From NCBI GenBank assembly GCA_017302715.1, contig JAFLCD010000001.1, positions 372,001-436,000 on the forward strand: a stretch of 64,000 bases of DNA, read 5' to 3'. This DNA is from Deltaproteobacteria bacterium. GTDB taxonomy: Bacteria > Bdellovibrionota > UBA2394. The notes under the pieces were generated by a model that saw only the letters and a program-made list of their open reading frames with translations, was not told the origin of the DNA and did not search any database. A program made the position numbers and the translations under genes. Shown here piece after piece: positions 30,961 to 36,796 of this stretch (position 1 is its first letter; each line of letters begins with the position of its first letter).

Positions 30961-32382
30961 CTATTTACCTTTTCTTTCGAAGTAAACGTCTTGAACAATC
31001 GCGCTTCTATCTAAGGAGACAGCGATTGATTGGCTCTCATATCCTGGAGCTGAAAAAATCAAATCATAGGAACCGGGAGCCAACATTTTTTGATAGAAAC
31101 CATTTTTAGATTTTCTGGGTTTTTCACTTCTATATTTTACTTCGTTCAAATAGATGCTGCCTTCGACCGGTGCACCTGTACTTGCGTCGAGCATTCGACC
31201 ACGCACTTGAGAGCCAGTCATCAATCGATTCAAAAGAAATTGCCAGCCGGCTCGCTGACCCAGCACTGTTTTATTTCTCCATTCACCGAAGTCGGGTTGA
31301 AAGCCTTGTGCACTTGCATTTACTTCAATCACATACGCCATTGTATTGGCTTCGTTATACATCCAAGAAATATCTTCGCCATCGACAGGATAAATAATTT
31401 CCCAACCTGTGCCGTAAGCATAGGTACCTTTTCCGTCATCTGTTTTTAAAGTTTTAGCAAGCGCGGCTCCAATATCGGCCACGATAAAATTTTCAGGAGT
31501 AAATTGATTGGCACAACCATAGGGAGCGATCACAAGTTCACTGTAAGAATGATAAGAGACATTAATCGACGGATTATATTTTTTTACAAAATCCATCAGT
31601 GCTTGAGTCTCGGGTTCACTTGCAGCTTTGGCTCCTCGATAAGTTTGATCGGCGGGCACTCCGCTGCTGCCTTTGCACATTCCCCACTGAAAAGGATAAT
31701 TTCGATTGATGTCGACCCCATAAATTCTATCTTCGATGGCGCGTGCATTTTTTCTCCACCAAGAATCTTTTTGCCAAACAATATTATTTCCATCGGGATT
31801 CATTTGAGGAACAACCCAGATCGCAAGGCGATCGAGCCATGCTGTCACCCAAGGCGTATCTAAATTATCATAATTTTTTACAAGGTACGTGATGATGTCG
31901 GTAGTCACTTCAGTTGTCATCAGCTCGCGGGCGTGATGCATTCCATTAAAAAGAATGACGGGTTTTGAATCTAAATTTTCAGAAGTCGAGATACGTACAC
32001 CAAGAATGGGACGACCTTGGATCGAGGTTCCGATTTTCTCTACGTGCACTAAATTTGGATAATCGGCGGCAACTTGTTTTACTAAATTGAGAATTTTTTC
32101 TGGAGTGAGGTAGCGAGGATCGATTTTGGTTTGAGTATCTACAATTTCGACGGGATATCCCGAATTTTTAAGCAAATTAAAATATTCTTTGGATCCTATG
32201 ATATCGATACTTTTATTTTTTAAATCTTGCCCTGCGATATCCATATTAGGAGGAAGTGACTGCTTGTTGAGCAAAGTATTTTGAAAGTTCATTCGAATAC
32301 GAACTTTAGACGCCGCCTCTGCATTGAAATTGAGCAGCGCGCAGACCAATAAACCAAACAAAATTGAAATAACTGACTTCAT
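30961..32382 (-). CDS. M14 zinc carboxypeptidase, exported
   Basis: The 473-residue protein has a signal peptide (MKSVISILFGLLVCALLNFN, cleavage near AEAASK), a propeptide-like region and an M14 carboxypeptidase domain. The zinc ligands are His and Glu in FNGMHHARELMTTEV and His in NVSYHSYSELV. INRNYPFQWG and the catalytic Glu in MAYVIEVNAS fit carboxypeptidase T/A. The final 80 residues look like a carboxypeptidase regulatory-like beta domain (GRMLDASTGAPVEGSIYLNE). GGAGGGG-like GGAGGGGAAAA spacing upstream of the ATG gives a good ribosome-binding site. It likely digests peptides outside the cytoplasm. Confidence 0.92.
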   Translation of the reverse strand: MKSVISILFGLLVCALLNFNAEAASKVRIRMNFQNTLLNKQSLPPNMDIAGQDLKNKSIDIIGSKEYFNLLKNSGYPVEIVDTQTKIDPRYLTPEKILNLVKQVAADYPNLVHVEKIGTSIQGRPILGVRISTSENLDSKPVILFNGMHHARELMTTEVTTDIITYLVKNYDNLDTPWVTAWLDRLAIWVVPQMNPDGNNIVWQKDSWWRKNARAIEDRIYGVDINRNYPFQWGMCKGSSGVPADQTYRGAKAASEPETQALMDFVKKYNPSINVSYHSYSELVIAPYGCANQFTPENFIVADIGAALAKTLKTDDGKGTYAYGTGWEIIYPVDGEDISWMYNEANTMAYVIEVNASAQGFQPDFGEWRNKTVLGQRAGWQFLLNRLMTGSQVRGRMLDASTGAPVEGSIYLNEVKYRSEKPRKSKNGFYQKMLAPGSYDLIFSAPGYESQSIAVSLDRSAIVQDVYFERKGK

Positions 32383-32541: not shown

Positions 32542-32557
32542 TGGCATTTAAACTGCA
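32542..32557 (+). promoter_or_regulatory. Putative sigma-54 promoter of the FHA/Tad-like operon
   Basis: TGGCATTTAAACTGCA has GG-N10-GC spacing with one mismatch in each box. The -12 C at 32556 is 14 nt before the ATG at 32570, the same distance as at 2316 and 2388. The predicted leader is about two bases. Confidence 0.55.
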
Positions 32558-32569
32558 TTATAAGCCGTC

Positions 32570-33526
32570 ATGATTCAAAATTTATTAAAAGCTCTCGTTT
32601 TACTTTTATTAACTATGCCGCTTTGCGGCAATTCAGCCGAAGGAAGAAGTGAGGAAGAATCCCAGCAGATTTTAGAATCTGCTTATGTATGGATAGAGGG
32701 CATAGAAGGGATCGATTTAAGTGAAGATCAAAATGGAATTTCACTGAAGGGAACGATCTACCGAAAATCCGACTACGATCGCATCCAAAAACTCATAAAG
32801 AAATTTCCAGAAATTAAAAATAGAGCAGAAATCTCAAAAAAACTTTCTGCAAAGTTTCCAAGAGCCAATGTTCGATCCAGAGAATCAAAGATTGAGCCGA
32901 GCATTTATTTTGAAATGATTTTAGTCGAAGTAAGAAAGTCCGCACTTGATCGCGCGGGCCCGAGAATTTTAAGTCCGCTGGGAGCTACTTTGAATGCGGG
33001 GAGTTTTAAGGTTGATCCAGTAAAAGGGTTTCTCGATTTCTCTCTTCAAAATGGAGACGCAAAAGTTCACTCGAAACAAGTTTTGATTATTCAGAACGGA
33101 CAGAAGGGAGAATTCCATATTGGCGGAGAGTTTCCTGTGAAAACAGTAGGAACTCACTTCTCAAAAGTAGAATGGAAAGAATTTGGTTTTATCATCAAAT
33201 GTCTACCCAAACTTCAGGCACCTCCGTTTATTCATTTGAATATCGATTCTGAGATTTCGGACATCGACTCTGGAACATTTGTCGATGGGCTTCCCGTGAT
33301 TTCCAAAAAACATTTAAAGACTCAAGTTTTTGCAAAACTTGATGAGATGGTTGCAATTGGTGGAACGGTTCGCTCGGTAGAAGCAAAAATTCGAGATCAG
33401 ATTCCTGGGCTCAGTCTTATTCCCGGCTTAGGCAGACTTTTTGAAAGTGATGATTTTAAACGTCATCGTTCAGAAGCTTATATTTTTATTTCTCCAAAAA
33501 AATTAGAGCAAGGTTGGGTTCCATGA
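32570..33526 (+). CDS. Short secretin-family protein (CpaC/RcpA-like)
   Basis: The 318-residue protein has a signal peptide (cleavage near GNSAEG), then a small BON/N-domain-like segment (GISLKGTIYRKSDYDRIQKL). The secretin C-terminal domain follows, with NGQKGEFHIGGEFPV, VEWKEFGFIIKCLPKL, LKTQVFAKLDEMVAIGGTVR and PGLSLIPGLGRLFESDDFKR. It is much shorter than usual type II or Tad secretins, so the periplasmic N-domains are reduced. It is the first gene of a four-gene operon and overlaps the ATPase gene by 4 nt. It probably forms the outer-membrane pore of that system. Confidence 0.8.
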   Translation: MIQNLLKALVLLLLTMPLCGNSAEGRSEEESQQILESAYVWIEGIEGIDLSEDQNGISLKGTIYRKSDYDRIQKLIKKFPEIKNRAEISKKLSAKFPRANVRSRESKIEPSIYFEMILVEVRKSALDRAGPRILSPLGATLNAGSFKVDPVKGFLDFSLQNGDAKVHSKQVLIIQNGQKGEFHIGGEFPVKTVGTHFSKVEWKEFGFIIKCLPKLQAPPFIHLNIDSEISDIDSGTFVDGLPVISKKHLKTQVFAKLDEMVAIGGTVRSVEAKIRDQIPGLSLIPGLGRLFESDDFKRHRSEAYIFISPKKLEQGWVP

Positions 33527-34881
33527 AATCTTGGCTGAGTTTTCATTCAGAAGAGCAAACCAAACTAGTCTCTTTCTCTGAGCATATTACCGTCGGAAGT
33601 GCTGAAGCGAATATCATTCATTTGATGGGTAAAGGCGTTCGAGCGTTGCATGGACAATTTTTTACAAACGAAGGTCATCTTCTCTACAGGGATTTTGCTC
33701 AAAACTCGACCCAGTCTTTAGATGAAGCGAATGACCTAAAAGTTGGAGCTTGGTCCGTTCGCTCTTTTTCGCACGATCAATTGTGGTCCGAGTGGGGTGA
33801 AGGACTGATTACTTCATTTAAAAATATTCTGCGCGAATCGAAATCAGAAAATTTAGAAGAGAGTTTAAATCAACTCAAAGCCCTTTGGTTTTTGCGCGAT
33901 CCGATTCCGCAAGAAGTAGAAGAGAAATTAATTTCTCAATTCAATGAATTATCCATGCTCGGCCCGATTGAATATCTGCTAAATCAGCCCGATGTGACTG
34001 ATGTCTTAGTTACTCGGTATGACGAGATTTGGGTAGATGAAGCGGGGGAGCTTAAGCTCTCACCCTACAAATTTTCAAATCTTGAAACTTACAAAATTTA
34101 TTTAGAAAATCTCCTCGCTAAACTTCACAAGACCATTGATGAAAATATTCCTTATTTAGATTTTGTTTTACCTGATGGATCACGGGGGCATCTCATTAGC
34201 TCACCTATCACCGATGGGATTTCTTATCTTTCGATTCGAAAAATAAGAAAAGATTTTTTTAGTTTATCGAATTTATTCGAAAGAAAAATGTTCTCAGAAG
34301 AAATATATTCACTCCTAAAAAAATCTTTAGAACGAAGAGACAATATTTTAATTTCTGGATCAACGGGCTCCGGAAAAACCACTTTGATTAAAGCCCTTAT
34401 TCATGAGTGTCGTCAGCAAGAGCGCATTGTTGTTGCAGAAGATACGCCTGAGTTGCGACTGCCGCGTGCTAATACGGTGTTTTTAAATACACGCACGGAT
34501 TCAAAAACACATTTGCTTCCGATTTCTCTACGTGAATTGGTTCGGCAAAGTTTGCGAATGCGGCCCGATCGGATTGTGATCGGAGAGGTTCGTGGTGAGG
34601 AGGCTCTCGATCTTTTGCACGCAATGAATACCGGGCATCGAGGATGCATGGGAAGCCTGCATGCCAATTCAGCGCGAGATTCTCTTTTTCGTCTGCAGGG
34701 CCTGGCGCAGATGTGTTCTGCCAATCTTTCGGAGGCGGTTACTCGTGATCTCATTGCAAGAAATATTCATCTGATCATTCACTGCGGCCGTGATGAGAAA
34801 GGTAAAAGACAAATTGAGCATCTCGCTTATGTGCGAGGCTTGGACCAGAATCAAATCCTCTTAGAGGCGGTGTCTTCATGA
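33523..34881 (+). CDS. CpaF/TadA-type secretion ATPase with N-terminal FHA-like domain
   Basis: The 452-residue protein starts at ATG 33523, overlapping the previous stop as ATGA. Residues 1-80 resemble an FHA domain (SEHITVGSAEAN, VRALHGQFFTNEGHLLYRDF, QNST). The rest is a CpaF ATPase with NILISGSTGSGKTTLIKAL (Walker A), VVAEDTPELRLP, RMRPDRIVIGEVRGEEALDL (Walker B region) and GCMGSLHANSARDSL. CpaF proteins power assembly of Tad pili or related secretion. FHA domains bind phosphothreonine, so assembly may be phospho-regulated. An FHA fused to CpaF is uncommon. Confidence 0.88.
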   Translation: MKSWLSFHSEEQTKLVSFSEHITVGSAEANIIHLMGKGVRALHGQFFTNEGHLLYRDFAQNSTQSLDEANDLKVGAWSVRSFSHDQLWSEWGEGLITSFKNILRESKSENLEESLNQLKALWFLRDPIPQEVEEKLISQFNELSMLGPIEYLLNQPDVTDVLVTRYDEIWVDEAGELKLSPYKFSNLETYKIYLENLLAKLHKTIDENIPYLDFVLPDGSRGHLISSPITDGISYLSIRKIRKDFFSLSNLFERKMFSEEIYSLLKKSLERRDNILISGSTGSGKTTLIKALIHECRQQERIVVAEDTPELRLPRANTVFLNTRTDSKTHLLPISLRELVRQSLRMRPDRIVIGEVRGEEALDLLHAMNTGHRGCMGSLHANSARDSLFRLQGLAQMCSANLSEAVTRDLIARNIHLIIHCGRDEKGKRQIEHLAYVRGLDQNQILLEAVSS

Positions 34882-35858
34882 AATCTCCTCTTAAGACCTC
34901 CGATCTTGTGCGCACAGCTGGTTCACTTGAGTTGGGACTTCGAGCGGGTCGAGATTGGATCTCGATTTTAAAATGGATTTCGATGAATGATCCCAAAGAA
35001 GATGTACGAGTTTATTTTCGATTTCTTTGTCACAAGCTAAAATTCGAAGCAATTGAAAATGTTTTGAGATCAGAGAAAGAACTCTCTCGAGATTTAACGT
35101 GGATATTGTTTATTGAAATTCTTTTGCAGGCCCATAGAGGCTCTCAGCATCTTTCACAACTCTTTCAAACTTTTTCAAAAACCTCGTATTCGATACAACA
35201 GTTGAAACAAAAAGAAATCAGTCTTTTATTCGTCCCACGATTTCAGACTTGGGCGGCACTTTTGCTAACTGTAGCGTTTACGATTGCGCTTCCTATGCTT
35301 GCTCCAGAGTATTTTCCAACTTTCATTACTTTAAAGCGTTATGATTTGTTTGCCGCTGGATTTGGTTATCTCGGTTTAGGCTTTTGCCTTTTGCAATGGA
35401 TGTGTATTCGCCCCAGGCGACATCTTCGCCCCATGCTTAATCTCACTTTCTTTTTTTATTTTCTATCTCTCTTCATTGAATCGGGTCTCGATTTTTCAAG
35501 TGCTTGGTACCGAGCGGTAGGCACTGTCGATTTTGATCATAGAATTCGATCGTTGCTTCAAAAGTCAGGCCTTAATGTCGAGACTTCAGAAGATTTTTTA
35601 AAAAATCTTCAGTCTCAACTTCAAGCGCCATGGCCCGAAATTTTAAATGGATTGCTTTGGGCTAAAACATCGGGGGTTGGACTTTCAAATTATCTCAAAT
35701 CTATTTCAGAGAAAGAAGGGGAGCGATTGACGGCACTTTGGGAGGATGAAATTCGAAAATTGACGATGACGAGTTTAATTCCGCTTGGGCTTGTGATTTT
35801 TCCGGCGACTTTATTTCTTTTGGTGGGCCCGCAGATGCTTCAACTGGTGGCTCTATGA
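34878..35858 (+). CDS. TadB/TadC-like inner-membrane platform protein
   Basis: The 326-residue protein has a cytoplasmic N-terminal part, two adjacent membrane segments (about residues 125-180), a second cytoplasmic helical region and a C-terminal membrane segment (FPATLFLLVGPQMLQLV). This matches the GspF/TadB/TadC topology. Sequence conservation is low, but position directly after a CpaF ATPase (4-nt overlap) supports the call. Tad systems usually have both TadB and TadC. Here only one is present. Confidence 0.7.
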   Translation: MKSPLKTSDLVRTAGSLELGLRAGRDWISILKWISMNDPKEDVRVYFRFLCHKLKFEAIENVLRSEKELSRDLTWILFIEILLQAHRGSQHLSQLFQTFSKTSYSIQQLKQKEISLLFVPRFQTWAALLLTVAFTIALPMLAPEYFPTFITLKRYDLFAAGFGYLGLGFCLLQWMCIRPRRHLRPMLNLTFFFYFLSLFIESGLDFSSAWYRAVGTVDFDHRIRSLLQKSGLNVETSEDFLKNLQSQLQAPWPEILNGLLWAKTSGVGLSNYLKSISEKEGERLTALWEDEIRKLTMTSLIPLGLVIFPATLFLLVGPQMLQLVAL

Positions 35859-36796
35859 AAAACTTTTTAAAAAATCTCAAAATAAATATTTATAGTTTAA
35901 GAATTTGGAATCCAGACGCGGTCGGTATCAAAAGAAAATTTTTTCTAAAAGATGAAGTGGTTTTTGGTTCTGATAAAAAATCCGATGTTGTTCTTAAAGA
36001 TCTTGAAGGGCTGCATGCTCGATTTAACTTCTCTACAAATGAAATCTATTTTTTAAGTTCAGGTAAAACGCAAAGTATTGAGGCGGGAAGTCTTTTTCAA
36101 ATAGGTCGCTGTATTTTTCAGTGCACAGAGATTCGACTTTTCTCTAAACAGATGCAGATAACTATGGCAGCCGCTCTTTTTGGAATTTTTTTGCTATGGA
36201 GTGCCAGTTTATTAAGCGAGCATTCAAAGCCGGCTTGCTCAAGCTTTGCGATGAAGATTGCAGACGGGCTTTGGAATACGACCAGCGCCGATCTTAACGA
36301 AAAATATATTCTCTCAGATCTTCAAGAGTTTAGGAAAAGCTTTTCAAGTGCTCTGAAAGAGAAAAATTGGATTAAAGCGAGAGGTGAGTTGAATTCCATT
36401 CAGCAGGCGATTGCCTCAGCGAGACTGCCTGAAGCCTGTCGAGTTTTTTCGGCTTATTCAAATTTAGAGGCTAGACTTTCGGAGCACCTCATTGGAGAGC
36501 ATCTTCAGAATCGAGAACCTATACTCGCGGCACGAGAATTAGAAAAATTTGCGAATTCTGCATTAGTCCAAAACTTTTCAAAAATGAAAATCGAGCGTTG
36601 GAAAAAAAAGATCAGGCAGGCCGCAGGAAAACTTTATCTCGAAGGCTATGAAATTGAAGAAGAGGATTTAGAAAAGGCCAATGAACTCTATGAAAAAGCT
36701 CAGGCTACCTGCCTTGCTCTTCACCTGCCATCGGAGTGCTATCGAGGGATTCGAAAAAGTGACCCCGCTACTTCTGCGGCAAAAGAGGCGGAGTAA
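35855..36796 (+). CDS. FHA-domain membrane protein
   Basis: The 313-residue protein has an N-terminal FHA-like domain (VVFGSDKKSDVVLKDLEGLH, then ARFNFSTNEIYFLSS) in residues 25-95. One membrane segment follows (about 105-125), then a helical periplasmic region with TPR-like character ending in YEKAQATCLALHLPSECYRG. It overlaps the platform gene by 4 nt and closes the operon. With the FHA-like CpaF it gives the cluster two FHA modules. A scaffold that couples a phospho-signal to the envelope machine is plausible, but inferred. Confidence 0.65.
   Translation: MKNFLKNLKINIYSLRIWNPDAVGIKRKFFLKDEVVFGSDKKSDVVLKDLEGLHARFNFSTNEIYFLSSGKTQSIEAGSLFQIGRCIFQCTEIRLFSKQMQITMAAALFGIFLLWSASLLSEHSKPACSSFAMKIADGLWNTTSADLNEKYILSDLQEFRKSFSSALKEKNWIKARGELNSIQQAIASARLPEACRVFSAYSNLEARLSEHLIGEHLQNREPILAARELEKFANSALVQNFSKMKIERWKKKIRQAAGKLYLEGYEIEEEDLEKANELYEKAQATCLALHLPSECYRGIRKSDPATSAAKEAE

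Follow-up and report, generated by a model that had tools for sequence, protein, structure and literature searches.

A four-gene secretin-CpaF operon with a sigma-54 type promoter in Bdellovibrionota, a possible second Tad-derived envelope machine

What might a bacterium build with a secretin, a CpaF ATPase, an inner-membrane platform and one further membrane protein, when no pilin is encoded beside them? This question is raised by four open reading frames (ORFs) at positions 32570-36796 on the forward strand of the window, a 64,000-nucleotide stretch of DNA (C1:372001-436000) from a 2.39-Mb genome that is 96% complete and consists of 19 contigs. In order, they encode a secretin, a CpaF ATPase, a platform and a protein composed of an FHA-like domain, a transmembrane (TM) helix and a helical part. 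The initial annotation described four genes joined by 4-nt overlaps, and these overlaps are present once the start of the second gene is corrected from TTG 33514 to ATG 33523, which gives three ATGA-type junctions (33523-33526, 34878-34881 and 35855-35858).

The first gene (32570-33526, forward strand) encodes a secretin of 318 aa (PF00263, 8e-30), as short as had been claimed, with a signal peptide, a short BON-like stretch and the secretin domain. In an alignment with 15 relatives, it lacks the N-terminal pilus domain found in the main CpaC of the genome and in most related secretin-CpaF pairs, and it aligns with this same-genome CpaC across the secretin domain, which places it with CpaC/RcpA-type secretins. 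The second gene (33523-34881, forward strand) encodes a CpaF/TadA-type ATPase of 452 aa with an N-terminal FHA-like domain, matching PF00437 at 4.5e-42 and TIGR03819 at 2.6e-80, the latter below the model's own cut-off. Its P-loop, Walker B motif and His box are intact, the catalytic columns are invariant in five orthologs, and the nearest solved structures are those of CpaF. A single-sequence AlphaFold2 model of this protein (mean pLDDT 35) is too poor to test the fold.

The N-terminal domains of genes 2 and 4 are recognized as FHA-like by profile-profile comparison (hhalign) against 55 FHA domains, with 86% (E 4.7e-6) for gene 2 and 91% (E 1.1e-6) for gene 4, and with reversed-sequence controls at 0.3% and 1.8%; Pfam calls no FHA domain in either. 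The fused ATPase and the FHA-TM-helical layout of gene 4 described earlier hold as to fold family, but the proposed phospho-regulation through these modules is not supported, as the Arg (in GR), Ser (in S-x-x-H) and Asn (in NG) that contact phosphothreonine are not kept in either gene (five orthologs each). In 5/5 family CpaFs, GS stands in place of GR, and the residues at the Ser and Asn positions are variable; judged from these alignments, both domains have lost their phosphothreonine-binding residues. In contrast, the FHA-CpaFs of families f4, f5 and f10 look canonical. A search for co-occurring kinases finds eight Ser/Thr kinases in the source genome, together with 14 FHA domains, all above cut-off; phospho-signalling exists in this genome, and nothing ties it to the operon.

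The third gene (34878-35858, forward strand) encodes an inner-membrane platform of 326 aa with, according to profile comparisons, two T2SSF-like halves. Its own T2SSF score of 23.1 bits lies below the Pfam cut-off of 25.2, two orthologs exceed the cut-off, each in two stretches (38.8 and 34.3 bits), and in one ortholog T2SSF is matched by both halves, although only one of them exceeds the cut-off. In profile alignments, the N-terminal half resembles TadB (90%) and the C-terminal half TadC (97%). The single GspF/TadB-type gene of the initial annotation is thereby upheld, but to speak of one platform is misleading, given the two halves; the arrangement of both in a single gene is, by these alignments, the GspF layout. 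Family members match the platform profile at more than 450 bits, and elsewhere in the phylum no score exceeds 62 bits. Gene 4 (35855-36796, forward strand, 313 aa) encodes a cytoplasmic domain that is FHA-like by profile comparison, a single TM helix and a helical tail, which is presumably periplasmic and contains four cysteines invariant in five orthologs. Its profile matches 5/291 phylum genomes, exactly the five of the source family, and none of the 286 others. PF16697 matches it weakly (0.055), a PDB sequence search gave no significant match, the helical tail matched nothing in any search made, and a single-sequence AlphaFold2 model (mean pLDDT 50) is unusable for a fold test. A relationship between the tail and the FHA-TM proteins encoded in the main Tad cluster was considered and rejected (<1% in hhalign), the FHA part alone matching.

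The operon order is identical in the five family genomes (the source genome and G001-G004), always next to ruvCAB. The second flank (degP-like, tmk) matches in three of the four others, the contig of G004 stopping early. Because the gene set, order and flanks are kept in 5/5 family genomes, the arrangement is beyond chance. Across these five genomes, the operon includes neither a pilin gene nor CpaB, TadZ or a second platform gene, and none of Flp, CpaB/RcpC, TadZ/CpaE, TadE/TadG or a peptidase was found at the locus. The missing TadZ and second platform gene are as first reported; the missing pilin and prepilin peptidase are true of the operon but not of the genome, which has two Flp-like genes, an orphan Flp-type gene and one prepilin peptidase, nor, for the peptidase, of the window. 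A secreted M14 carboxypeptidase (30961-32382) is encoded divergently from the operon. G001 and G002 also have it at this site; it is missing from the operon locus in G003.

A search for pilin-like genes elsewhere leads to a full Tad/Kil-like cluster that is divided between the ends of two contigs (C1:1-17064 and C15:1-2272) and comprises CpaE, CpaC (505 aa), CpaB, TadE/TadG-like genes, two Flp-like genes, three FHA membrane proteins, DUF192, TadC, CpaF and TadB. CpaE and CpaF are fused in relatives, and the contig break therefore probably splits the CpaE-CpaF gene. The genome further contains a complete type II secretion system (T2SS) at C7, a type IVa pilus set at C13 and C1:438-443 kb, and two stand-alone CpaF genes at C5:9120-10268 and C1:67 kb. 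The last of these (L094:9029-10306) is an FHA-like/CpaF fusion on a very long branch, with no secretin nearby. The sole prepilin peptidase detected in the genome (PF06750 and PF01478; 60851-61648, C1:433196, forward strand) lies outside the operon, 24 kb downstream, and would have to process any pilin that the operon machine uses. Within the 64-kb window, no Flp-type gene was found by motif. The orphan Flp-type prepilin (C3:17143-17391), with the motif NKG/QTMMEY... and a Pfam Flp match below cut-off, overlaps a gene for a protein of 70 aa in which a similar motif occurs; this two-gene locus (G000 C3:16938-17391, equal to L203:3939-4392, reverse strand) adjoins a Ser/Thr kinase gene. A sigma-54-like site, expected by chance at ~3%, is located 89 nt upstream of the orphan gene. 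A weak Flp match at C14 was rejected, being internal to a 1203-aa gene.

The operon is preceded by a sigma-54 type -24/-12 promoter, TGGCATTTAAACTGCA, at 32542-32557 on the forward strand, 12 nt before the secretin ATG. When sites located 12-14 nt from a start codon and scoring at least 9/11 are counted, one is found 12-14 nt before an in-frame ATG in 5/5 family orthologs (in three after shifting the annotated start), with the -24 GG and -12 GC elements at a conserved position in upstream stretches that otherwise look unlike one another. Such sites precede 12 of 29 secretin-CpaF pairs (four of them perfect) versus 16 of 1096 other ORFs, an enrichment whose Fisher p of 1.6e-13 is a guide only, as the orthologs are not independent; none was found for pairs of the f6/f11/f14 type. 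Sigma-54 control of the operon, already part of the initial annotation, is well supported by these footprints, and the transcript is predicted to start ~2-4 nt before the ATG and to be leaderless or nearly so. Regulatory genes accompany other pairs as well: the f4 pair operon encodes an FHA/sigma-54 activator fusion (PF00158 6.7e-71, PF00498 4e-17), a sigma-54 activator gene lies near f8/f12 pairs, and a receiver-histidine kinase adjoins f4/f6/f13/f14 pairs.

Outside the source family, a secretin of ~350-490 aa is followed directly by a CpaF of ~320-505 aa in many families. At least 54 of the 291 phylum genomes, from at least 13 families, contain such an adjacent pair, a count obtained as the intersection of the secretin and CpaF match lists, the true number being higher. 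In a CpaF tree of 57 rows, 21 pair CpaFs, including that of the operon, form one clade (99/91), within which the source-family clade (f1, 100/97) has the f6/f11/f14/f18/f26/f27 pairs as its sister group (95/92); the main-cluster CpaE-CpaF fusions and the stand-alone CpaFs fall apart from it. The deeper joins are uncertain because the branches are long, and a single clade for all 30 pairs is neither shown nor rejected (p-AU 0.38). By sequence comparison, the operon is the local form of a phylum-wide pore-plus-motor gene pair, which is intact in most genomes and, in many lineages, probably under another sigma factor; no description of a second secretin-CpaF pair was found in the literature searched. 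That the locus might be a fragment of a full Tad cluster was rejected on the order kept in 5/5 family genomes, the CpaF phylogeny and the separate full cluster, in agreement with the reduced, self-contained set first proposed. Most pairs inspected in other families consist of secretin and CpaF with no platform nearby, and no pilin was found in the several kb inspected around these loci. Near f8/f12 pairs there is a weakly T2SSF-like gene, often on the opposite strand, and directly upstream of f3 pairs a secreted trypsin-like gene. In seven f6 genus-g10 genomes (G009, G088, G106, G161, G202, G230 and G258), the pair secretin has in-frame stops, as though the system were being lost there.

Judged by published description, the Kil system of Myxococcus xanthus (PMC8460266, PMC12075869) appears to be the closest match. 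Both have a short secretin without the N-terminal domain (318 aa in the operon), FHA-domain partners, secretin and CpaF genes apart from pilin genes, and a predatory deltaproteobacterial setting. The CpaF of Kil has an N-terminal FHA domain, and that of the operon has an N-terminus that is FHA-like by profile comparison (86%, E 4.7e-6) but has lost the binding residues. In contrast to Kil, the FHA domains of the operon are without phosphothreonine-binding residues, and the operon has no CpaB homolog, KilG/KilH pair, second platform gene or pilin. With Tad systems, the operon shares the CpaF/TadA-type ATPase, the CpaC-type secretin and the TadB/TadC-like platform halves, but the locus lacks Flp, CpaB/RcpC, TadZ/CpaE, TadE/TadG and a peptidase, one two-half gene replaces TadB plus TadC, an FHA-like/TM protein is added, and the full Tad cluster of the source genome is separate. 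A secretin, an ATPase, a single GspF-like two-domain platform and an inner-membrane tether recall the T2SS, whereas the ATPase is of the CpaF/TadA type and not GspE, GspC/L/M and the pseudopilins GspG-K are missing from the locus, and the genome holds its T2SS elsewhere (C7). Gene 4 resembles SctD/YscD, the type III secretion inner ring, in its FHA-like cytoplasmic domain, TM helix and periplasmic domain, to which the weak PF16697 match can be added, but its periplasmic part is predicted to be helical, with four cysteines and no ring-building alpha/beta domains, and no other type III part lies near the operon.

Our preferred reading, to which we give an even chance, is that the operon encodes a second Tad-derived, sigma-54-controlled envelope machine that uses unlinked pilins. 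The secretin would form the outer-membrane pore and a CpaF hexamer would drive the single GspF-like platform, while the FHA-like/TM/helical protein would tie motor and platform together in the inner membrane, through its FHA-like fold and not through phosphothreonine binding. From pilins whose genes lie elsewhere, such a machine could build a short filament or a pseudopilus; the orphan Flp-type gene (C3:17143-17391) and its small neighbour are candidates, which the single prepilin peptidase would mature. What the sequences show is the gene content, conservation, phylogeny, promoter footprint and the existence of unlinked pilins and a peptidase; we infer the assembly and activity of this machine and the identity of its pilin. 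In favour of a second machine are the gene set, order and site kept in 5/5 family genomes, the invariant catalytic residues, the distinct CpaF clade, the 54 or more genomes with an adjacent pair, the platform of its own, the constant promoter spacing, the sigma-54 activators encoded with the f4 pair and near f8/f12 pairs, and the unlinked Flp-type gene and prepilin peptidase. Against it are the lack of a pilin in the operon and around the pair loci inspected in other families, the many pairs with no platform nearby, and the link between orphan Flp and operon, which consists only of co-occurrence and the sigma-54-like site at -89. As for cargo or function, prey or surface contact is a guess by analogy with the biology of the phylum. 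The operon is also among the smallest complete-looking core sets of type IV filament machines, and helps to ask which parts are needed.

Bdellovibrio-type predators need Tad pilins for prey invasion (PMC5430801). FliA controls the TAD operon of B. bacteriovorus (bd0109-0119), and extra flp genes lie elsewhere, among them flp4, which is expressed, needed for predation and not FliA-controlled; some flp genes outside the TAD operon are without a known machine of their own (PMC5430801). The pair, which Bdellovibrio-type f6 genomes appear to carry, is a concrete candidate for it. Tentatively, and at less than an even chance, the preferred reading may be extended to the phylum: secretin-CpaF pairs would be a second type IV filament machine of ancient origin in Bdellovibrionota, controlled by sigma-54 in many lineages, apart from the FliA-controlled Tad pilus and serving orphan Flp pilins. 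In the source family, the GspF-like platform with its two halves and an FHA-like tether peculiar to that family would have made it a complete minimal machine.

The many pairs with no platform nearby suggest, however, that they and the main Tad system may have components in common. The main rival, which we consider unlikely on balance, makes the pair an alternative exit pore and motor, swapped under other conditions into the main Tad/Kil pilus with its Flp, CpaB, TadZ and platforms, and controlled by sigma-54 instead of FliA. As most inspected pairs elsewhere are secretin and CpaF only, they must borrow parts; the Kil system of M. xanthus is likewise divided over two clusters, one for the secretin and FHA-CpaF and one for the platforms and pilins (PMC8460266), and the Bdellovibrio TAD operon is under FliA (PMC5430801). 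Yet the source-family pair is accompanied by a platform of its own and a family-specific membrane protein, whether gained or retained, its CpaF clade is long-branched and distinct, and the main cluster of the source genome already owns a secretin and a CpaF.

The divergent M14 carboxypeptidase, present in 3/5 family genomes, and the trypsin-like gene upstream of f3 pairs would fit a filament-free, regulated secretion channel for envelope- or prey-directed hydrolases, the M14 enzyme being one example. This we regard as improbable: to our knowledge, all known secretin/CpaF-type machines require pilin-like proteins, the carboxypeptidase is not a fixed partner because it is absent from the G003 locus, and a complete T2SS is available in the genome for such enzymes. 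Decay of a Tad-cluster remnant, to which the small number of genes, their rapid evolution, the degenerate state of the FHA domains and the in-frame stops of the seven g10 genomes might point, is very improbable and largely refuted: all four genes are intact in 5/5 family genomes, and both the catalytic residues and the spacing of the promoter are conserved.

Three minor observations concern regulation. Sigma-54-like sites are commoner in the window than in shuffled sequence (15 vs 7.4 at a score of at least 9, and 6 vs 1.4 at a score of at least 10). In G007 (L150:6698-10539), a secretin, an FHA-CpaF and an FHA/sigma-54-activator fusion lie in one operon after a perfect sigma-54 promoter, and with its own activator a feedback loop is possible. 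In two family genomes, G003 and G004, the operon has a fifth gene in the same orientation, which encodes a TPR-PilZ protein (L097:6371-7375 and L098:6501-7454) and suggests a c-di-GMP input.
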